This document shows, piece by piece, positions 54,696 through 64,000 of a stretch of DNA of 64,000 bases (positions are counted from its first letter, which is position 1; every line of letters starts with the position of its first letter). The stretch lies in contig NZ_CP061298.1 of the NCBI RefSeq assembly GCF_018687595.1, forward strand, positions 1,240,001 through 1,304,000, given 5' to 3'. Source of the DNA: Polynucleobacter paludilacus (lineage in GTDB: Bacteria > Pseudomonadota > Gammaproteobacteria > Burkholderiales > Burkholderiaceae). A model generated the notes under the pieces. That model saw nothing but the letters and a program-made list of their open reading frames with translations. It searched no databases and was not told the origin of the DNA. The position numbers and the translations under genes are program-made.

Positions 54696-55349
54696 CTAGA
54701 TCAGTAGATGCCCAGTCTTCACAAAGATCGTACAGCCTTCTTGACTAAAGGGCTGGTGCAAGCTCATATGGGGACTTCTAATCCATGAACCGGTTGGATA
54801 GCGCCCGTGCTCATCCTCAAACACGCCATCAATGACAAAGATTTCTTCACCACCAAAATGCTTATGTGGATTGAAGTAGGTTTGCGGCGCCCAACGAACT
54901 AAAGTCGATCCACTACCTTGCCGCATGAGTGGCATCACATGAAGACCGGGAACCATGCCTTGATACCAAGGGGCTGTTTTGGTATCGACGATCTCTCGCT
55001 CCACTTGATCGGGACCAAGATGTCGCAACTTCACAAAGAGAGTGCACCCAGCATCGCTAAATGGTGCATGAGAAGAGCTCGGTGGATTCATGATGTAAGT
55101 CCCAGCGGAATAATCGCCAGTCTCATCGCTAAATACTCCATCTAAAACAAATATCTCTTCACCAAATTCATGACTATGGGTTGGAAACTTGGATCCTGGT
55201 TGATAGCGAACTATGGAAGTCGCTTTCGCCAGCTCGTCACCCATACGATCCAGCATGCGTCTCTCCACCCCCAATTCGGGACTTGGGATCCACGGTAAGT
55301 CGTGATGATTTATCACAACTCTCTGACTGTAATCAGCGTTGATATTCAT
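54696..55349 (-). CDS. Two-cupin ChrR-like protein
   Basis: 217 residues made of two similar cupin halves. The first has PTHSHEFGEEIFVLDGVFSD (about residues 56-75) and the second NPHKHFGGEEIFVIDGVFED, each with the His/Glu metal ligands followed by AGTYIMNPPSSSHAPF or TGSWIRSPHMSLHQPF. The halves resemble the C-terminal cupin of the anti-sigma factor ChrR, without its zinc-binding N-terminal domain, so it is unlikely to be an anti-sigma factor itself. It could store, sense or oxidise a small molecule. Confidence 0.82.
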   Translation of the reverse strand: MNINADYSQRVVINHHDLPWIPSPELGVERRMLDRMGDELAKATSIVRYQPGSKFPTHSHEFGEEIFVLDGVFSDETGDYSAGTYIMNPPSSSHAPFSDAGCTLFVKLRHLGPDQVEREIVDTKTAPWYQGMVPGLHVMPLMRQGSGSTLVRWAPQTYFNPHKHFGGEEIFVIDGVFEDEHGRYPTGSWIRSPHMSLHQPFSQEGCTIFVKTGHLLI

Positions 55350-55454
55350 TTAGTTCATTTCAGATATTTAAAAACTTCACAAAGCATAGCAAGCAAAATG
55401 AATGTGTGCCCAAAAGACAAAACCCCCACCATTGCTGATGAGGGTTTGCTTTTC

Positions 55455-55499
55455 TGGTGGGCCCACCAGGACTTGAACCTGGGACCAAAGGATTATGAG
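55455..55499 (-). other. 3' half of tRNA with CAU anticodon (attachment-site-like remnant)
   Basis: On the minus strand this reads CTCATAA (anticodon loop, CAU), TCCTT (3' anticodon stem), TGGTC (variable loop), CCAGG-TTCAAGT-CCTGG (complete T arm), TGGGCCC (acceptor), A, then CCA. Homology to a tRNA stops exactly at the 5' edge of the anticodon loop: the base before it is T, not the A needed to pair. The D arm and 5' anticodon stem are missing. This is the pattern left by tyrosine integrases that recombine at the anticodon loop and duplicate the 3' end of the tRNA gene. It is not a working tRNA. Confidence 0.85.
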
Positions 55500-55556
55500 A
55501 GCAGACATCCAAGATAGACCCTTATAAACAGGGGCTCTGCGGGTGGTCAGTGTCGG

Positions 55557-55580
55557 TGTGTAAGCAAATGTGTAAGCAAA
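55557..55580. repeat. Tandem 12-bp direct repeat TGTGTAAGCAAA x2
   Basis: Two perfect adjacent copies of TGTGTAAGCAAA, 58 bp from the tRNA half. Short direct repeats of this kind next to a tRNA attachment site resemble integrase arm-binding sites; this role is inferred. Confidence 0.75.
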
Positions 55581-55614
55581 TTCGTGGATTTAAAGGAAGC
55601 GTGGGATCACTCTT

Positions 55615-55629
55615 TGGTTTTCAAAACCA
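55615..55629. repeat. Short inverted repeat TGGTTTT-C-AAAACCA
   Basis: Seven-base perfect dyad around one central base. First of three dyads lying within 100 bp. Possibly a protein-binding site. Confidence 0.5.
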
Positions 55630-55636
55630 CAGGAAT

Positions 55637-55671
55637 TTTGGAACAACCATCTAGCACTTCGTTGCTCCAAA
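55637..55671. repeat. Interrupted hairpin TTTGGAACAAC...GTTGCTCCAAA
   Basis: Eleven-position stem with a single A/C mismatch and a 13-base loop. It could be a structured RNA or single-stranded DNA recombination site; function unknown. Confidence 0.5.
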
Positions 55672-55691
55672 GTACATTTTGAATGATTTGT

Positions 55692-55714
55692 AAGTGTTAC
55701 TTAAAGTAACGCTT
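55692..55714. repeat. Inverted repeat AAGTGTTACTT-A-AAGTAACGCTT
   Basis: Eleven-base dyad (one G/T wobble) with a single central base, the shape of an operator for a dimeric regulator. Lies about 90 bp from the end of the YeeE-like gene. Confidence 0.55.
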
Positions 55715-55761
55715 GTTTAACCAACGACCGCTACCGACCCAAAGCAGTCATAAAAAGAAAA

Positions 55762-55781
55762 AAACCGCCCGAAGGCGGTTT
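55762..55781 (-). terminator. Rho-independent terminator of the sox cluster
   Basis: Stem AAACCGCC/GGCGGTTT with CGAA loop; read on the minus strand it is followed by TTTTCTTTTTA. It lies 19 bp after the last gene of the sox cluster, so this is the transcript end. Confidence 0.85.
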
Positions 55782-55800
55782 AGATCTAACGTAAATTGGA

Positions 55801-56289
55801 TTAATGGTTATGCCCTGAATTACCCATAGGCATATTCTGCTGCATTTGCTGAGGCATCTGCCCTCCAACCATTGGCATGTTCCCACCATTCATAGGCATT
55901 TGCTTTTGCATCTGCTTAATTTGTGCAGGAGTCATGTTGCCCATCATCTGTTGGTGCATTTGCATCATTTGTGAATGCATTGAAGGATCACATTGCTCAT
56001 ACCTTGCATTGCCACTCATTTGATGAGTGTCAGCACCTTTATAGCCAAGTAATGATGGGTCTAACATTCCCGAAATCATAGCGATATGCCCAAATACTAG
56101 GAATAAGGCAACGCCGATCGCTAAGAACCACTGCCTCAGGCGTTTCCAGCTGGCAATAATGAAAACATCAGTAATGGCGCCCATACTGCAAAAACCTGTT
56201 TTTTGCATCACCATGCCCAACGCAAAAGTAATGGCAAAAGTTGCCCAAAGAACAGACTTGCCTAAAGAGGAAATATCAACAACATCCAT
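55801..56289 (-). CDS. Truncated YeeE/YedE (SoxT-like) protein with Met/Gln-rich tail
   Basis: 162 residues. Residues 1-75 match the start of a YeeE/YedE sulfur-compound transporter: helix at about 12-29, then the signature KTGFCSMGAITDVF (Cys34), then a helix at about 52-75 (WFLAIGVALFLVFGHIAM). Full-length members have many more helices; these are absent. From residue 88 the protein becomes a hydrophilic tail with 17 Met and 15 Gln in 75 residues plus His and Gly, ending NSGHNH. It is the last gene of the sox cluster. The tail looks like a metal-binding or disordered region. Whether it is a functional new form or a decayed SoxT is unknown. Confidence 0.75.
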   Translation of the reverse strand: MDVVDISSLGKSVLWATFAITFALGMVMQKTGFCSMGAITDVFIIASWKRLRQWFLAIGVALFLVFGHIAMISGMLDPSLLGYKGADTHQMSGNARYEQCDPSMHSQMMQMHQQMMGNMTPAQIKQMQKQMPMNGGNMPMVGGQMPQQMQQNMPMGNSGHNH

Positions 56290-56309
56290 GGTGATTAGAT
56301 TCAGAAAAA

Positions 56310-56627
56310 TTAAGGTTTAAATTTATAAAACTGTTTATTCAGGTAGGCAGTTACATCAGCCTCGTCCTCCGGAAAAAGATCCAGGCGCAATTCAGTATTG
56401 CAACGCTCTACCATCGACTTTAGTTTTGGAAGAGAGTTCACCTTGCCATCAGATCGCGTGTAAATCATGTCGCCATTACCAAAGCCTGTTTTCTTTGCAT
56501 GGCAGGCGTAGCACTTCTGCTGATCAATTGCTTTCCCATTTTCTAGGTTTGCACTCGCAAAACTAGAGCTAGCAATAGAGATCAAGGCCAATACAAAAGA
56601 CCTACGAATAAATGCGGTGAATGTCAT
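56310..56627 (-). CDS. Small monohaem cytochrome c
   Basis: 105 residues: signal peptide of about 26 residues (ALISIASSSFASA), one haem site CYACH at about residue 39, then YLNKQFYKFKP at the end. The sequence has a second Cys (MVERCNTEL) and no clear Met ligand after it, so the sixth ligand is uncertain. It lies within the sox cluster, so it is probably an electron carrier for sulfur oxidation. Confidence 0.82.
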   Translation of the reverse strand: MTFTAFIRRSFVLALISIASSSFASANLENGKAIDQQKCYACHAKKTGFGNGDMIYTRSDGKVNSLPKLKSMVERCNTELRLDLFPEDEADVTAYLNKQFYKFKP

Positions 56628-56686
56628 TACAAATCAGTGATTTATGGCTAAAACCACCATTTTAGAGCTAAGTGACTAATTTCGCC

Positions 56687-57643
56687 CTATTCGGCCTGAA
56701 TGGATAGATAAACGTTATACGCATTCATGCGGTTGGCCGATCTAAATAAAAGCATACCTTCGTATTCAGACCAATCCACCTGTTGATAAGCCTCTTCAAA
56801 GGGATCCATATTAATTGCTGCTGCTGACATAGATTCTCTTAAGTATTTAAGGTAAGCGCGAGTAAAGCCGATATCCTCAACTGGCTTGACAGAGTACGCT
56901 CCATGACCTGGAATGACGACATTGGGGTTGAGCTTTTCAATTTCATCCAAAGCCAGTAACCAGCCTTTGCTATCAGCGTTACCCACAAAAGGAATTCGCC
57001 CACGAAATACTAAATCTCCAGCAAAAAGCACTTTTTCTGAGGGCACATACACTATGAGATCTTCTGGAGTGTGGGCAGGACCAACCCTAGTGATCAAAAA
57101 TTCTACTCCGCCAATATTCAATCTCTTTTTTTCATCAATCCAGACATCAGCTGATATCAGCCTTGTATTTGCATTAACCCAAGGAGCAAAATCAATGCGA
57201 GAAGCGATAAGACGTTGTTTTGCTGTTTCAGAAGACAGGTAATTTCTGCCCTCACCCTGAGCATAAATGCTTGCACCAATTTTCTTAAACTCCTGTAATC
57301 CATAAACATGATCAGCGTGATAGTGACTCACAATCACTGCCACAACTTTTTGATTGGTGATCTTCTTAATTTCGGCTAAGAGCTTCTGGGCAAGTATTGG
57401 TGATCCCAAAGCATCCATCACCACTACACCCTCTGGCGTGATCACAAAACCAGCGTTAGAAATAAAGTTCTGATTTGCACTGCTTCCCATTTCGGGGCGC
57501 CCCTGGACAAAATAGGTATGAGGAGCAACTTGTATTGGCTTGAGCTGGACATTATCTGGCGCTCCAGCGGACTGCGCAAAAGCGGCCCCCAAAAAGATAA
57601 GGGACCCAAGAATCCCCGTCCAAGCGCGGATGAAACAAATCAT
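56687..57643 (-). CDS. Periplasmic metallo-beta-lactamase-fold hydrolase (SoxH-like)
   Basis: 318 residues with a signal peptide (about 1-25). Zinc-site motif HYHADH at 107-112, further ligands in GPAHTPEDL, FAGDLVFRGRIPF and PGHGAYS. The family includes SoxH and quinoprotein relay hydrolases found beside sulfur and methanol oxidation genes. The natural reaction is not known. It lies in the sox cluster between the DsrE-like gene and the small cytochrome. Confidence 0.85.
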   Translation of the reverse strand: MICFIRAWTGILGSLIFLGAAFAQSAGAPDNVQLKPIQVAPHTYFVQGRPEMGSSANQNFISNAGFVITPEGVVVMDALGSPILAQKLLAEIKKITNQKVVAVIVSHYHADHVYGLQEFKKIGASIYAQGEGRNYLSSETAKQRLIASRIDFAPWVNANTRLISADVWIDEKKRLNIGGVEFLITRVGPAHTPEDLIVYVPSEKVLFAGDLVFRGRIPFVGNADSKGWLLALDEIEKLNPNVVIPGHGAYSVKPVEDIGFTRAYLKYLRESMSAAAINMDPFEEAYQQVDWSEYEGMLLFRSANRMNAYNVYLSIQAE

Positions 57644-57655
57644 GACAAAAACTGC

Positions 57656-58093
57656 TTATGGCTTAATGTAGGCAAAGCCATCCTTATATTGAAGATCCGC
57701 AACCCGCACCACTCCAGATGGCGTGAAATCAGCATCGAGAATAAATTGATCTTTCTTAAGATTGCGATTTTTTAAAGTAATTTCACATACTTCAAATTTG
57801 ACGCCACGAGACTTCAATGCCCCAATCAGTGGTGCGTACTCGATATTATTTTTCTTGTCTTTAGCACCTTCCATCAATAAATCAACGCCATTGGCATGGG
57901 TGACGACAATGATGGTGGTATCAGGGGCCGTATCCAAATGGTTACGAATATTACGCAACCCCTTTAGACCTTGTGATTCAGCATCATCAATGTGATAAAC
58001 CACTTTTGTTGCGCCTGTGTGCTGTGCAAATGCCATTGAACCAAGACCAAAAGTCAATATGGTGGCAAGAAATAAGTTGATGAGTTTTTTCAT
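57656..58093 (-). CDS. Exported DsrE-like protein
   Basis: About 145 residues from the ATG at 58093 (AAGG 8 bp upstream). Signal peptide MKKLINLFLATILTFGLG..AFA, then a DsrE/DsrF-like fold: TKVVYHIDDAESQGLKGLRNI, TIIVVTHANGVDLLM, and a single Cys in GVKFEVCEITLKNR. DsrE proteins carry sulfur as persulfide on a Cys; export here suggests a role in periplasmic sulfur handling with SoxB. Starts 24 bp after the soxB stop. Confidence 0.82.
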   Translation of the reverse strand: MKKLINLFLATILTFGLGSMAFAQHTGATKVVYHIDDAESQGLKGLRNIRNHLDTAPDTTIIVVTHANGVDLLMEGAKDKKNNIEYAPLIGALKSRGVKFEVCEITLKNRNLKKDQFILDADFTPSGVVRVADLQYKDGFAYIKP

Positions 58094-58117
58094 CTCATTG
58101 ACCTTCAAATAAGGGGG

Positions 58118-59848
58118 TTAAATAGGAGCCATACCAGGGTTGTTAGCAACCCCTTTAACAACGGGCTCATTGAGTTTCACTGCTTTGACAACCTTCACAT
58201 CTTTTAGGTGACGTTCAATCACATCCCAAATTGGCTCACCACCAGCGTTTTTAGCCTCTTCACTTACAGGCGCCCAACCGGCAACCTTATAGGTCTTGCT
58301 AGCTTCGATAGCTTTCCCATTCAGACGCATATCAGAGATGCGGTTTCCAGCACTTTGGACGGGATCGATGGTGTATTGCATGCCGCCAACACGCACCATA
58401 TCGCCGCCCTGTTGGTAATAAGGGTCTGGGTTAAATAAATTATCAGCCACATCCTCTAGGATCGTCTTAATCATTTCACCACTCATATTCGTTACTGTGG
58501 TGTAGGGATAAGTAATGGCAGTTTGGTCGAGAAGATTTTCGCGAGTAATCGCTTGGCCAGGTAGCAGGCTTGTTCCCCAGCGGAACCCTGGTGAAAATGC
58601 AATCTCCGCATTTTTCTGAGACATCAAACCATCTAAGATTAATTGATCAAAGCTGCCATTGAAATTACCGCGACGGTAGAGCAGACCATCGGTAGTTGCT
58701 AATTTTTCATTTAGCTTGGCTTCATAGGGTGCCCTTACCTTAGCAATCAACTTTGACATCGCAGGGTCAGCAGGAATCATATTGGAGAAGATGGGCAATA
58801 GCTTGTAACGAAAATCTACTGGCTTTCCACCTTTGACATCAAAATCTAATACGCCTAAGAACTTACTGTTAGAGCCAGCATTAGTAACTAGGGTTACACC
58901 TCCAGAATTCTTAACCTTTACTGGGATAGGAACGCCGTCATGAGTATGGCCGCCCATAATTGCATCTAAACCACTCACACGGGAAGCCATCTTCAAATCA
59001 ACATCCATACCATTGTGAGAAAGCAAGACGACTACTTTAGCGCCCTTAGCTTTAACCTCATTGATTGTTTTTTGAAGATTTTCTTCCTGAATACCAAAGG
59101 TCCAATCAGGCGTGAAGTAACGGGGGTTTGCAATTGGGGTATAGGGGAATGCCTGTCCAATAATGGCAACTTGAATGCCATTTTGTACTTTCATAACATA
59201 TGGATTAAAAACAGAATCGCCAAAATCTGCCGTCTTAATATTTTGCGCAATAAACGAAACTTTACCTTTGAAATCGCCGTTTACGATCTCCATTACACGC
59301 TTTTCACCCAGAGTCATTTCCCAGTGAGGCGTCATTACGTCAACACCCAATGCAAGTGCTGCATCAACCATATCCTGGCCATTAGTCCAGAGGGCTGTAC
59401 CTGATCCCTGCCAAGTATCTCCTCCATCAAGCAATAACGCACCAGGGCGATTTGCCTTCATTTGTTTAATGAGGGTTGCCATGTGAGCAAAGCCACCCAT
59501 CTTGCCGTAATTCTGTGCTGCAGCGACATAGTCTAAGTATGTAAAAGCGTGCGCATCACGAGTGTCCGGGGCAATACCATTTGCCTTTAAAAAGTATTCG
59601 CCTACTAGGTGCGGTGTTTTGCCTTCTTGCGAACCAATCCCAATATTTACATTAGGTTCACGGAAGTAAATTGGCAATAACTGAGCATGGCAGTCTGTGA
59701 AATGCAAAAAATGGACGTTACCAAATTTAGGCAAATCATAAAATTTTTGCGCATTACTTTGAGCGCTTACAAAATTAGATTGGAGGCTCATCCCTCCTGC
59801 AGATGCTATAGCTAAAGCTTGCAAAAAATCGCGACGACTTAATGACAT
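58118..59848 (-). CDS. soxB: Thiosulfohydrolase SoxB
   Basis: 576-residue periplasmic enzyme that removes the terminal sulfone of SoxYZ-bound thiosulfate as sulfate. It has a Tat signal with SRRDFLQ at 4-10. The di-manganese phosphoesterase motifs are visible: HFTDCHAQLLP (Asp52, His54), LLDGGDTWQGSGT, LLSHNGMDVD and MGGHTHDGVPI. The 5'-nucleotidase-like C-terminal domain is complete, so it should be active. Normal SoxB length. Confidence 0.96.
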   Translation of the reverse strand: MSLSRRDFLQALAIASAGGMSLQSNFVSAQSNAQKFYDLPKFGNVHFLHFTDCHAQLLPIYFREPNVNIGIGSQEGKTPHLVGEYFLKANGIAPDTRDAHAFTYLDYVAAAQNYGKMGGFAHMATLIKQMKANRPGALLLDGGDTWQGSGTALWTNGQDMVDAALALGVDVMTPHWEMTLGEKRVMEIVNGDFKGKVSFIAQNIKTADFGDSVFNPYVMKVQNGIQVAIIGQAFPYTPIANPRYFTPDWTFGIQEENLQKTINEVKAKGAKVVVLLSHNGMDVDLKMASRVSGLDAIMGGHTHDGVPIPVKVKNSGGVTLVTNAGSNSKFLGVLDFDVKGGKPVDFRYKLLPIFSNMIPADPAMSKLIAKVRAPYEAKLNEKLATTDGLLYRRGNFNGSFDQLILDGLMSQKNAEIAFSPGFRWGTSLLPGQAITRENLLDQTAITYPYTTVTNMSGEMIKTILEDVADNLFNPDPYYQQGGDMVRVGGMQYTIDPVQSAGNRISDMRLNGKAIEASKTYKVAGWAPVSEEAKNAGGEPIWDVIERHLKDVKVVKAVKLNEPVVKGVANNPGMAPI

Positions 59849-59895
59849 AAGATTCCTTCTATGAAAACAGGCCTATCGGCCTGTCTTTCATTTAT

Positions 59896-60534
59896 TTATT
59901 GATTAACTGGTGAAGTTGGATCCAATAGCAATGCCATCAAATCTTGAATTTGCTGCTCATTCAAGAGCTTAAAATGAGCAAACCGAGGCATATTGCTACA
60001 AGCGTTATATGCCTTTGAATTATTGATCCGATTCCAGGTATAAACCACTAACTCTTGAGAGTTACCGCGTAACTTTCCATAGTTCCAAAGAGAAGGCCCA
60101 ATCGTTCCATAAGAAATTTCTTTCTTATCGATTTGATGGCAGTTATAACAACCGCCGCCAATTGGAGTATCAGCTTTGTCAGTCCAAGTGGCACCACGAC
60201 CGCTTTGGGCAATCGCTTCACCCTTTTTCCAGTCACCAATGTACTTGCCATCAGATGGCTGCTTAATATCATCCATATTGATTTTTTGGATCTTTTCACG
60301 CATCCCTTGGGCTTTTTCACTACTAGCAAATACAGGGTCAGAGCAAAACTTTTGTGTTTCATCTTGTTGAATGCGATCTAAACCAGCAATACCCTCAGCC
60401 CTAAAACCATCCTTCATCATTTTGTTAAATTTAGGATCATTTTGTTGTTGAGCAAAGACACTACCCTGCGTTAAAACCAGAGTTAAAGCTATTCCGGTAA
60501 AAGCGAAGATGGATTTAATGTTCTTAGTTTTCAT
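59896..60534 (-). CDS. soxX: Sulfur oxidation c-type cytochrome SoxX
   Basis: 212 residues: signal peptide of about 29 residues, a helical N-terminal extension, and the haem motif CYNCH at 129-133. The distal ligand is Met182 in NMPRFAHF. It forms the SoxAX complex that joins thiosulfate to SoxY. It lies 19 bp after soxA. Confidence 0.93.
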   Translation of the reverse strand: MKTKNIKSIFAFTGIALTLVLTQGSVFAQQQNDPKFNKMMKDGFRAEGIAGLDRIQQDETQKFCSDPVFASSEKAQGMREKIQKINMDDIKQPSDGKYIGDWKKGEAIAQSGRGATWTDKADTPIGGGCYNCHQIDKKEISYGTIGPSLWNYGKLRGNSQELVVYTWNRINNSKAYNACSNMPRFAHFKLLNEQQIQDLMALLLDPTSPVNQ

Positions 60535-60553
60535 TTTCTCTATCTCTTATCCA

Positions 60554-61366
60554 TTAACGCTTCAAACCAGGGGTCTCTACTATTCCACCATTGGCATTCT
60601 TCGCCATATACATAGATAACGCTATGGTGACATCGGAGGCATAAATTGGGAATGGGAAGCGCTGTTGACGATAGCAATCATTTAAACGTTGTTGCATGGT
60701 CCAAAATTGGCCGCTAGATACGCGATATGCAGGCCAAGAACCCCATCCCATCGCTGCGCCCTTCTGAGTCGTCAAATTGGGGAGATCCTGCAAGCGAATG
60801 CGTTTACCATTTTCTCCATGACACGATGCACATGAGAAGTCCATAGGGCCGCCTTCGAAATAAAATGCACGCTTACCGAGCTCATACATCTCTTTTTCTT
60901 TTGGGTGATTGGTGCTGACATTAATCTTTTCACCTTTAGACAAAGTGACGACGTAAGCAACAATAGCCTCCATGTCCTTTTTGGGGCCCACTTGAAATGG
61001 TGCATCAATCATTTCTTTTGGGTTACGACCTTGCAAGTTCTGCATACAAGTCATCAAGCGCGACTCAAGATCTTGGACCTTATTTGTATCTTTAAAGTAG
61101 TGTGGCAACTGTGCCGCTGCACCCTTAACAACCCCTGGCCCAAGACCTAGGTCACACTTCTCCAGTGTGGCATTCTTTGGGCCAGCAGGTGTTTTCCATA
61201 AATCTTCACCTGCCGCCTCATAAAGCTCGGATGGATTTCCATCAGCAATCATTTCGCGATATTTTGCGATTTCATCCGTTGCCGTTTGCGCAAAGACCAA
61301 AGATGAAAGCGATATGCTGGCTGCCAGTATTCCTAAGGTCAAGCCCAAGGTGAATTTACGCTGCAT
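60554..61366 (-). CDS. soxA: Sulfur oxidation c-type cytochrome SoxA (monohaem form)
   Basis: 270 residues: signal peptide of about 26. Only one haem motif, CASCH at 179-183; at the place of the first haem of di-haem SoxA there are just single cysteines, Cys71 (EKCDLG) and Cys107 (LMTCMQN), which probably form a disulfide. The active-site cysteine, which ligates the haem and carries sulfur, is Cys231 in QRLNDCYRQQRF. It conjugates thiosulfate to SoxY. The one-haem form occurs in other species. Confidence 0.94.
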   Translation of the reverse strand: MQRKFTLGLTLGILAASISLSSLVFAQTATDEIAKYREMIADGNPSELYEAAGEDLWKTPAGPKNATLEKCDLGLGPGVVKGAAAQLPHYFKDTNKVQDLESRLMTCMQNLQGRNPKEMIDAPFQVGPKKDMEAIVAYVVTLSKGEKINVSTNHPKEKEMYELGKRAFYFEGGPMDFSCASCHGENGKRIRLQDLPNLTTQKGAAMGWGSWPAYRVSSGQFWTMQQRLNDCYRQQRFPFPIYASDVTIALSMYMAKNANGGIVETPGLKR

Positions 61367-61410
61367 TTGTAACCCTTTCAGAACAATGAAGGCACTTAAA
61401 GATGTATTGC

Positions 61411-61719
61411 TTATGAAGCAGTTGCCTCATCAGTACGCTTATCACCCTTGTTGTCCACCCAATTCACAACAATCTTGTCGCCCTTAGCGCCCTTGTACTT
61501 AAAGTTCAAAAATGGGTCTTTGGAAACAGCTGGACCAAATTGGCCATTCAATACATCTTTACCATTTGCTTTCACATTAATGGTAGTGATATGCCATGCA
61601 GGGATGACTTTTCCGGCCGCATCTTTGCGCTGACCTGACTCCATGTCATGTTTCATTAAAATTTTTACATCCACAATTCCACCGTTCTCGGCTGCTCTAA
61701 CGCGCATTGGATCAGACAT
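61411..61719 (-). CDS. soxZ: Sulfur carrier complex subunit SoxZ
   Basis: 102 residues with an immunoglobulin-like SoxZ fold: VDVKILMKHDMESGQRKD, IPAWHITTINVKANGKDVL, and FLNFKYKGAKGDKIVVNWVDNKGD. It has no cysteine and no signal peptide; by family precedent it is exported as a complex with SoxY via the SoxY signal. 54 bp after soxY. Confidence 0.95.
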   Translation of the reverse strand: MSDPMRVRAAENGGIVDVKILMKHDMESGQRKDAAGKVIPAWHITTINVKANGKDVLNGQFGPAVSKDPFLNFKYKGAKGDKIVVNWVDNKGDKRTDEATAS

Positions 61720-61773
61720 ATGTTCCTCTTGTAATTAGTAATTAGTTAAATGTTTCGCTGGGCTCTTACGTGC

Positions 61774-62226
61774 TTAACCGCCACAACCGCCGAGAGTTAC
61801 CTTTACTTCTTTGACGGCCATACTCCACTTGCCATCTGCCTTTACCAATGCATAGACGTTAGAGGTTTGACCCATCTTGATACGGGTCGTCACAAAGGAC
61901 TCAGTTCCGGCAGGGATAAAAAATTGAGCAGCCAAGGCACTCGGGTTCTTTTCAACCAAGATTGCCATTTGATCAGCTTTGAGCGTAGTTGTAATGCCAA
62001 CCGGAACAACTGCACCGTTTTCTGCAATATCAGGAGCGTTCAAGGTAATGGCTGCTGATTTGTCGGGACTGCCAGCGCCTAAAATTTTGAAAACATCATC
62101 TAAGCCCTTGCCTTCAAAAGCGGCTTTATTCCACTCTTGTGCTTGCGCCAAACTAATAAGGCCTGCAGAAGCCATCAAGCCAAATACGGCTGAATACTTC
62201 AATACACTGCGTCGCTGCTGATTCAT
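61774..62226 (-). CDS. soxY: Sulfur carrier protein SoxY
   Basis: 150 residues. A Tat-type signal with Arg-Arg (NQQRRSVLK) is followed by the SoxY fold. It ends in the GGCGG swinging arm (146-150), whose Cys148 carries the sulfur substrate through the Sox cycle. AAAGGAG ribosome site 6 bp before the ATG. Central protein of the Sox system. Confidence 0.97.
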   Translation of the reverse strand: MNQQRRSVLKYSAVFGLMASAGLISLAQAQEWNKAAFEGKGLDDVFKILGAGSPDKSAAITLNAPDIAENGAVVPVGITTTLKADQMAILVEKNPSALAAQFFIPAGTESFVTTRIKMGQTSNVYALVKADGKWSMAVKEVKVTLGGCGG

Positions 62227-62303
62227 AAAAACTCCTTTATTAAGCTCTCTACGTGAATATATTACTTTCTAGTCAATCATTCTAGTTGTTGCTAGGGTAT
62301 GTC

Positions 62304-63386
62304 CTATTTCCCTCCAGACAGCACCCAAGTAACCAATGTCTTGCGATCCTCTTCCGATAATTGAGCCTGTGGAGGCATCGGAATGGCACCCCAAACCCCA
62401 GAGCCGCCATTCTTCACCTTAGCCATTAACTTGTCTAAAGCTCCGCTCTGACCTTGATACTTAGAAGCGATATCGGCAACAGAAGGACCAACTAACTTGC
62501 TGTTCATCGCATGACAGGCGGTACAGTTCTCGCTTTTAAACAATGCTGCGGGGCCCTTGCTAATTGCATGTGTCTCAGACGCATGTGCCAAACCTTCGCC
62601 TGCAGCTCCAGGTAACTTTGCCAAAGGTGGTTTAGTGGAGTCGGAGCCACGAAATGGGCCATATTGACGATTCTGCTCAGCAATATTTCCTTGAGCATTT
62701 CTTGCGTAATCAGGTAACTCAGAACCAATTTGCACAAATTGCACGCAGTTATGCATACATGCAGTTGCATGAACATCAGGAGTGCCTTTTGAATTCCACA
62801 TCCCGTGTTTTAAAGTCATGCCATTGCGGTTAGGCATCCGTTTTTGGACTTCAGCAATGTTGGTATTGCTCAGCACAAAGTCATCGGGAACAACTTCAGC
62901 CATACTGAGAAGATATGCCACTAAGGCAAAGGTATCGTCTGGTGTTAATGAGCGTGGTGCATTCCACGGCATGGCTCGATAAATGTAATCCCATAACGAG
63001 GAAACAGTAGCCACCTTCATGATGGTTGTTCTTTGAGGCTGCTTTCTATCGGATAGTGAGGCTACCCTACCCGTCTTAATATCATCTGCGCTTGTCCCAC
63101 CAATAATGGGTGTAAAGATTTCATTAGACTCACCGAAAGTTCCGTGACAAACAGAGCACTTAGATTCCCAAAGCTTCTGCCCTTGCTCTACTGAGCCAGA
63201 ACCCTTTGGAAGCCCCTTGAAGTCTGGTCGAACATCAATATCCCAAGCAGCAACTTCTGCTGGTGTAGCGACCCTACCAATGCCAGGAAAACGTGTACTA
63301 GAATTCTGGGCAACTGCAGAGCCAATCACAAAACACGTTGTTGCAACAAACAGAGTAGATTTTGCAAATTTAGCCAACTTGAACAT
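62304..63386 (-). CDS. soxD: Sulfur dehydrogenase cytochrome c subunit SoxD
   Basis: 360 residues from the ATG at 63386 (GGGGAGG 6 bp upstream, inside the end of soxC); the longer frame is rejected. It has a signal peptide of about 27 residues. Two haem motifs, CSVCH at 77-81 and CTACH at 288-292, sit in the two cytochrome domains, plus a Cys pair CMHNC at 210-214. It accepts electrons from the molybdenum subunit SoxC, which oxidises SoxY-bound persulfide. Confidence 0.94.
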   Translation of the reverse strand: MFKLAKFAKSTLFVATTCFVIGSAVAQNSSTRFPGIGRVATPAEVAAWDIDVRPDFKGLPKGSGSVEQGQKLWESKCSVCHGTFGESNEIFTPIIGGTSADDIKTGRVASLSDRKQPQRTTIMKVATVSSLWDYIYRAMPWNAPRSLTPDDTFALVAYLLSMAEVVPDDFVLSNTNIAEVQKRMPNRNGMTLKHGMWNSKGTPDVHATACMHNCVQFVQIGSELPDYARNAQGNIAEQNRQYGPFRGSDSTKPPLAKLPGAAGEGLAHASETHAISKGPAALFKSENCTACHAMNSKLVGPSVADIASKYQGQSGALDKLMAKVKNGGSGVWGAIPMPPQAQLSEEDRKTLVTWVLSGGK

Positions 63387-64000
63387 TGCTAACCTCCCCA
63401 TTAGTGCCAACCTTCCATGATTGAATAGCATTATTGTGATAGATCGAGCGAGTTCCACGGACATCTCTTAATAATTTGATGGATGGCTGAACATAGCCAG
63501 TATCGTCAATCGCGCGAGATTGCAAAATTGCAGGGGAGCCATCCCACACCCAATCAATATTGAAACGAGTAAGGGCCTTACTTAAGACTGGAGTCTCTAG
63601 GCGTGCTGTCTTCCAATTATTTCCACCATCAAAAGATACATCTACTCTTTTGACTTTGCCTCTTCCAGACCATGCCAAACCACTGACGTTATAGAACCCC
63701 TTATCGAGTAATTGCTGACCACCTGAAGGAGTAGTAATGACTGATTTACATTCTTGAATAGAGGTGTACTGACGTGCCATACCATCGGGCATGAGATCGT
63801 TGTAGTGGACCGCCTCATCTTTCGTTGCATATGGCATATCTCCAACCTCTAAGCGACGCAACCACTTCACCCAACTTACCCCCTGAACACCAGGAACTAC
63901 AAGGCGTAAAGGGAAGCCATTTTCAGGGCGTAGCATTTCACCATTCATACCCCAGGCGACGATTGCTTCATTCAATACATCACTTAAGTTTATGGTTCGA
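63370..64000 (-). CDS. soxC: Sulfur dehydrogenase molybdopterin subunit SoxC (partial)
   Basis: C-terminal 209 residues of a sulfite oxidase-like protein, reading from the window edge. It begins RTINLSDVLNEAIVAWGMNG, followed by RPENGFPLRLVVPGVQGVSW (the conserved Arg/Pro-rich motif of SoxC) and the C-terminal dimerisation domain with VDVSFDGGNNWKTARLETP. The frame continues through the window end without a stop, so the true start lies beyond 64000. The last 17 bp overlap soxD. Confidence 0.92.
   Translation of the reverse strand, partial: RTINLSDVLNEAIVAWGMNGEMLRPENGFPLRLVVPGVQGVSWVKWLRRLEVGDMPYATKDEAVHYNDLMPDGMARQYTSIQECKSVITTPSGGQQLLDKGFYNVSGLAWSGRGKVKRVDVSFDGGNNWKTARLETPVLSKALTRFNIDWVWDGSPAILQSRAIDDTGYVQPSIKLLRDVRGTRSIYHNNAIQSWKVGTNGEVSNVQVG

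Follow-up and report, generated by a model that had tools for sequence, protein, structure and literature searches.

The locus analyzed here raises the question of how the 3' half of a tRNA gene came to stand beside a sox gene cluster, and whether the two belong to one acquired segment. The window (the whole stretch of DNA analyzed, 64,000 nucleotides) covers 1240-1304 kb of the source genome (G000; 1,670,875 bases), and its numbering is carried past 64000 into the right flank as window-equivalent positions. Other G-numbers denote relatives, and the genus set comprised 186 genomes. A sequence-only reading of the window had proposed an integration junction at the tRNA half, with the sox genes inside or next to the integrated element. 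This proposal is supported by an intact tRNA gene 18.5 kb away, by matching motifs at the two ends, and by the sox cluster itself, which lies inside the segment bounded in this way. We conclude that the 18.5-kb sox segment is probably an integrated mobile unit that entered at the motif CTCATAA through the integrase of another element.

The tRNA half and the two ends of the segment

The half (55455-55499, minus strand) reads CTCATAATCCTTTGGTCCCAGGTTCAAGTCCTGGTGGGCCCACCA, includes CCA, and contains the 7-bp core CTCATAA of the anticodon loop (55493-55499, minus strand). Its last 43 bases matched the whole source genome at two places when up to three mismatches were allowed, and both matches were exact. 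The second match (G000:C1:1313984-1314026; window-equivalent 73984-74026) falls in an intact CAU tRNA gene identified by ARAGORN at G000:C1:1313984-1314060 (window-equivalent 73984-74060), which adjoins a gene for an rpoD-type sigma factor, followed by one for a dnaG-type primase (ORFs named by eye). The 45-bp half, whose cut at the 5' edge of the anticodon loop had been described from the letters, matches the corresponding half of this gene exactly, and the intact counterpart sought within about 100 kb was found well inside that distance. The repeat is longer than 45 bp because the tRNA terminator was duplicated too (55412-55454, minus strand). It spans 69 bp exactly, or 88 bp with one mismatch (55412-55499 versus 73941-74028), and its identity ends precisely at the 5' edge of the anticodon loop. 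A direct repeat of the tRNA 3' end is present at both boundaries, as in tRNA-targeted islands, and one end keeps the whole tRNA gene, as in such islands and at the border of tycheposons.

Of the 39 tRNAs of the source genome, 29 were read, and ARAGORN labeled three CAU tRNAs among them as Met: the initiator, an elongator-Met-like tRNA, and the one at the island border. By exclusion, and from known tRNA sequences, the border gene is most likely tRNA-Ile2(CAU), and the label tRNA-Met was rejected for it. The CAU anticodon given in the sequence-only reading stands, with Ile2 more likely than Met.

The other features of this boundary belong to a conserved 'B end' (55500-55720, minus strand), which finishes with ...TGTCTGCT before the core; many relatives have TTCTGCT at this place. 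Eighteen of 26 comparable B ends in relatives were 82-93% identical to it, on units with and without an integrase, and the remaining eight scored 70-80%, which is not separable from random stretches by the same measure (median 74%). Two of these eight, in G076 at 1687047 and in G006 at 1737539, could not be recognized as B ends, so these two borders were drawn from the core and the tRNA half. Matches to the B end, partial ones included, were found in 104 of the 186 genus genomes (E <= 0.001). Among named genomes, the exact B-end pattern gave 20 matches, with the source genome's own possibly excluded; 14 were in Polynucleobacter records and the other six in uncultured beta-proteobacterial, Burkholderiales, or Burkholderiaceae records. 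The B end was also considered as a known RNA; this was rejected, as it had no Rfam match at the gathering score and only weak matches at E up to 1.

The tandem 12-mer noticed beside the half is TGTGTAAGCAAA x2 (55557-55580, plus strand). Its presence was confirmed, but it is not an incidental repeat: it is an end motif of a genus-wide family and has an inverted counterpart, TTGCCTACACA, at the opposite ('A') end (window-equivalent 73893). Within 95 kb, comprising the window and the right flank, TGTGTARGCAA occurred only at 55557, at 55569, and inverted at 73893. We infer that the GCTTACACA/TGTGTARGC motifs are likely arm-type sites of an integrase. In addition, a 15-bp palindrome, GTTACTTAAAGTAAC, lies at 55696-55710, with its other copy at window-equivalent 73922-73936. 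In the same 95 kb, the palindrome GTTACTTWAAGTAAC was found at 55696 and 73922 only; with one mismatch allowed, it occupied just two places in the whole 1.67-Mb genome, one at each end of the island. On the B side, the arms lie 79 and 67 bp and the palindrome 211 bp before the core; on the A side, the distance from the core is 92 bp to the palindrome and 125 bp to the arm. Many of the regions read share the B-side spacings, most of them those of the arms, and the A-side spacing of 92 bp is found again in G017 and G076. The exact arm or palindrome was missing from the A side of some units (for example, G005 and some in G017, G076, and G088).

Cargo and origin of the sox genes

The island comprises 18,529 bp between the two cores and extends from 55455 to G000:C1:1314028 (window-equivalent 74028), so that 55455-64000 lies inside the window. 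Its GC content is 0.43, against 0.47-0.48 in the flanks. Just outside, the left flank carries a ChrR-type cupin gene (54696-55349, minus strand, family match). The cargo inside the window is encoded on the minus strand and begins with genes for a DUF6803 protein (55801-56289, family match), a 105-aa ORF without a Pfam match (56310-56627), a metallo-beta-lactamase-fold protein (56687-57643, family match), and a DsrE-family protein (57656-58108, family match). These are followed by soxB (58118-59848; TIGR04486, 873.8 bits), soxX (59896-60534; TIGR04485), soxA (60554-61366; TIGR04484), soxZ (61411-61719; TIGR04490), soxY (61774-62226; TIGR04488), a soxD-like c-type cytochrome gene (62304-63464), and soxC (63370-64000, continuing to window-equivalent 64725; TIGR04555). 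The cytochrome has two Cytochrom_C stretches and matched no NCBIfam model over its cut-off; it was named soxD because it stands beside soxC. Beyond the window, the remainder of soxC is joined by genes for a metallo-beta-lactamase protein, an SQR-like flavoprotein whose NCBIfam match falls short of the cut-off, a protein judged by eye to be TauE-like, HiPIP, a protein with a sub-threshold DUF1404 match, and finally SCO1, cbb3-like oxidase subunits, and a Crp-type regulator. No transfer genes were seen among the island proteins matched to families. The sox block is separated from the oxidase part by a stretch of about 600 bp without an assigned gene (window-equivalent 68160-68775), which lies between the HiPIP and DUF1404-like genes.

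SoxB was found in 177 of the 186 genus genomes. It had stops, was fragmentary, or was not found in a minority, namely G034, G036, G050, and G031, plus nine genomes without a match, several of which are incomplete. In three relatives compared (G037, G064, and G067), sox stands at one shared locus. The nearest relative among the loci compared was G067, with 90% identity over 13.7 kb of the left flank; its SoxB, at 827 kb, is only 75% identical to the island copy. The sequences of G067 and G000 around this ancestral locus are 93-95% identical, and a 4.06-kb stretch with the different, short sox cluster that G067 retains there is missing from G000. In contrast, the sox block of G064 shares 93.7% identity with the island's over 11.7 kb, whereas the genes beside it are only 66-78% identical to G000; it stands between the same neighbors, at an ordinary chromosomal locus. 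The comparison of these loci indicates that the ancestral cluster was lost in G000 and that the sox genes of the island are foreign. The island genes probably replaced the ancestral short cluster, and the segment likely arrived from another species through an integrase encoded elsewhere. G064 is related to the donor but need not be the donor itself, and this comparison does not account for the capture of the block into a unit, because G064 carries the block at an ordinary locus. These results suggest how a near-universal pathway of the genus came to be exchanged for another species' version.

The counterexample that would have spoken against an element, a relative with sox at this place and no sign of integration, did not appear: BLASTN comparison with 12 relatives gave no sox match at the border tRNA, with the G066 and G067 loci covered only in part. 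Six relatives (G020, G033, G035, G037, G063, and G081) have the tRNA gene beside rpoD without end motifs, as at an empty site. The cupin flank was present in two of these (G020 and G081), several kb from the tRNA, and the precise empty counterpart of the G000 junction, with the cupin gene as its flank, was seen in none of the six. G131, in which a second 5' half follows after 197 bp with no end motifs, was left out of the empty sites.

A hotspot of tandem units at the tRNA in the genus

This site is a genus-wide hotspot. The 45-mer of the half occurred with at most three mismatches in 123 of the 186 genomes, many of which had two to six copies. In the 15 regions read (G000 and 14 relatives), the tandem units had only CTCATAA in common, and the order of the arrays was tRNA 5' half, core, A end, cargo, B end, core, and then the next A end or the host 3' half. 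Twenty-seven units larger than 1 kb were tabulated from G000 and 13 relatives, 14 genomes picked for informative-looking loci rather than at random; six units had a full integrase and 21 had none. Three 225-bp steps were left out as parts of one end, and the fifteenth region (G033) held a single core and no unit. Unit sizes ranged from 1.5 to 32.6 kb. The cargo included aromatic ring hydroxylation and catechol cleavage (G066) and an aldehyde dehydrogenase with an FMN-reductase-type protein (G005) in units without an integrase, as well as nitrate assimilation (G101, by eye) and a type I Zorya system (ZorA, B, C, and D; G067, L161:508-8655, at the same tRNA) in integrase-bearing units. The site therefore offers these bacteria a predictable entry port for cargo, used for sox here and for aromatic catabolism, nitrate assimilation, and Zorya in relatives. 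Among the titles and abstract openings surveyed, none points to this site, and an earlier account of the locus as a genomic island is possible.

The integrase of the related units is a protein of about 450 aa that matches PHROG integrases (1.2e-31) and has no Pfam match up to E 0.1; its name comes from PHROGs and from a homologue over the PF00589 cut-off (G044:C1:346145). Because Pfam misses this protein and PF00589 by itself is insufficient, homology to the family integrase was searched as well. Integrase calls per unit were made by tblastn and HMM searches on the same regions, and they refer to this integrase family and PF00589. A second tyrosine recombinase, of about 190 aa, accompanied the larger integrase in five of the six integrase-bearing units (G067, G101, G076, G044, and G006). 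A PDB search with the integrase gave no relevant match. A phage origin was considered and rejected: in viral_contigs, no relative of the integrase could be confirmed and nothing matched the tandem arm motif exactly.

In the source genome, PF00589 had no match in the window or the island, which agrees with the earlier statement that the window holds no integrase; its five matches lie at about 280, 322, 680, 973, and 1609 kb. An integrase had also been expected between the tRNA and the half, and here the expectation failed: tblastn with seven recombinases from four related units found no recombinase remnant in the segment (best E 0.13), while the same queries recovered the G067 integrase. The segment thus has neither the own integrase of a tRNA-targeted island nor the tyrosine recombinase of a tycheposon. 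As G000 as a whole gave 0 matches to the family integrase, the unit may be immobile now; its present mobility, like its helper integrase, is putative.

The units differ in how they spare the tRNA. Three types of A end were seen most: a spare 3' half with terminator, ends with GAAAGAAG, and ends with CCAGAG. The first type, that of the G000 island, comes without a full replacement tRNA. The 5' half of the tRNA gave 128 matches in 120 genomes, of which 19 continue with CTCATAAGAA. Among these 19, a second, intron-free tRNA follows 225 bp on in three (G073, G085, and G109), an anticodon stem with an intron start follows about 235-285 bp on in 15, and neither was found at the thresholds used in one (G098). 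Whole replacement copies were read in G013, G066, G073, G085, and G101. CCAGAG ends bring no tRNA part; none of the 128 matches runs into one, and all seven CCAGAG-started units in the table stand behind a B end. A further 15 matches enter other sequences, and the two examined (G006 and one of G044) had an intron-containing copy. Units with neither a 3' half nor a replacement tRNA were seen only behind another unit. These end types suggest a rule, namely that a unit adjacent to the tRNA has to supply whatever keeps tRNA-Ile2 functional.

Intron-bearing replacement tRNAs were found inside element ends in G066, G067, G101, G013, and G078 (e.g., L145:13829-14050, minus strand). Of four loci searched, three, including L145 of G066, gave an Rfam Intron_gpI match for the intron, and its start was found in 56 of the 186 genomes. 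It splits CTCATAA after CTCAT, which would remove the core from the spare tRNA. From this position, the intron may shield the replacement tRNA from the next integration, which suggests a role of tRNA group I introns as protection against integrases. The Azoarcus-type group I intron in tRNA-Ile(CAU) likewise sits in the anticodon loop, and the tRNA is likely the same; the difference is that the intron-bearing tRNA described here lies inside an element end and replaces a host copy split by the element. A split tRNA-Ile2 was considered for G066 and G067, whose halves lie 21 and 33 kb apart, because neither ARAGORN nor the Rfam tRNA model detected an intact copy (tRNAs read: 36 of 36 in G066, 28 of 39 in G067, and 29 of 39 in G000). 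This idea was rejected, since a complete intron-containing copy stands about 190 nt inside the element end.

Mode of entry and comparison with known systems

Taken together, the G000 island works like a tRNA-targeted island, with a structure as expected from site-specific integration in the anticodon loop. Besides the B end and the core, the incoming circle would have contained a spare tRNA 3' half together with its terminator. A crossover in the core would then produce the order 5' half-core-(new 3' half)-cargo-B end-core-(old 3' half), and the tRNA gene would have stayed whole because the element's spare 3' half joined the host 5' half at the core. The integrase of about 450 aa of the related units, or a relative of it, may have acted in trans or during tandem accretion. 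The unit itself would either have had and lost its own integrase or always have been non-autonomous.

The main alternative, plausible although somewhat doubtful in our judgment, is a decayed autonomous island whose integrase once stood beside the A end and was deleted, leaving a fixed, immobile remnant of the CIME (cis-mobilizable element) type. The occurrence of the same end family on integrase-bearing units (G067, G101, and G076) fits such a course, as do the integrase remnants of 37 aa in one integrase-less G044 unit and of 49 aa beside the G017 array. However, the tblastn search described above detected no remnant in the G000 island, its A end belongs to the type that brings no full replacement tRNA, and loss in every one of the 21 of 27 units without an integrase would be less economical. 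CIMEs and tandem accretion are described in PMC5704250, CIMEs as decay products of ICEs or IMEs. Like CIMEs, the G000 unit keeps both att-like ends, with no integration or transfer gene found, and related units stand in tandem, sometimes beside an integrase-bearing one. In contrast, no conjugation gene was noticed here, units without an integrase outnumber the others among those read, and the end types vary in how the tRNA is preserved. The unit fits the CIME definition given in PMC5704250 except for derivation by decay, which would be putative here and of which the remnants in G044 and beside the G017 array were the only signs.

Entry of linear DNA by homologous recombination, through crossovers in the conserved flanks or the tRNA and with no site-specific step, is unlikely. 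Such exchange is a proposed route for replacement islands of the genus, and PMC5644125 describes recombination hotspots flanking those of P. asymbioticus, but it does not account for breaks exactly at the 7-bp core in unit after unit with unlike neighbors, for motifs at fixed distances at many ends, or for variation of the site by whole tandem units. An unrelated duplicated tRNA fragment with sox genes moved by ordinary rearrangement is very improbable: sox is not exotic in a genus with SoxB in 177 of 186 genomes, but the two-place palindrome and the inverted arm motifs mark exactly both ends, and the sox block resembles G064 far more than the neighboring genes do.

The preferred reading, integration of a mobile unit by another element's integrase, also invites comparison with other systems of cargo islands. 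Tycheposons, which PMC10872708 characterizes by a recombinase and a bordering tRNA, resemble the present units in forming cargo islands at a CAU tRNA, in the tyrosine recombinase of some units, and in metabolic cargo such as nitrate assimilation (G101, by eye). They differ in that most units read here have no recombinase, that the target here is the anticodon loop of the likely tRNA-Ile2, and that replacement tRNAs carry a group I intron. Integron cassette arrays and CALINs, as described in PMC11389934, likewise consist of tandem cargo units without a recombinase and with a common bounding site, whereas the present units have a 7-bp core in a tRNA, two different end types, likely arm sites, and sizes of 1.5-32.6 kb.

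A wider joint reading, which we put forward tentatively and regard as rather doubtful, is that an essential tRNA of Polynucleobacter serves as an integron-like platform for cassettes. Units, mostly without an integrase, would stack at the 7-bp core of tRNA-Ile2, and their movement in trans would depend on the integrase that a few of them carry. Units that split the tRNA would bring a spare, whose intron would break the core, so that splicing would restore the tRNA and the next integration would be blocked. Through this platform, one species would have exchanged its core sox cluster for that of another.

Two further observations concern sites elsewhere in these genomes. In G073, B ends at C1:683584-684548 and 857658 lie far from the rpoD-side tRNA, one of them beside a degenerate tRNA half, and the element family may therefore have secondary sites. 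In G000, another tyrosine recombinase (G000:C1:680756-681181) lies about 700 bp from a tRNA at 681890-681973, and this pair at about 681 kb possibly marks a second island.
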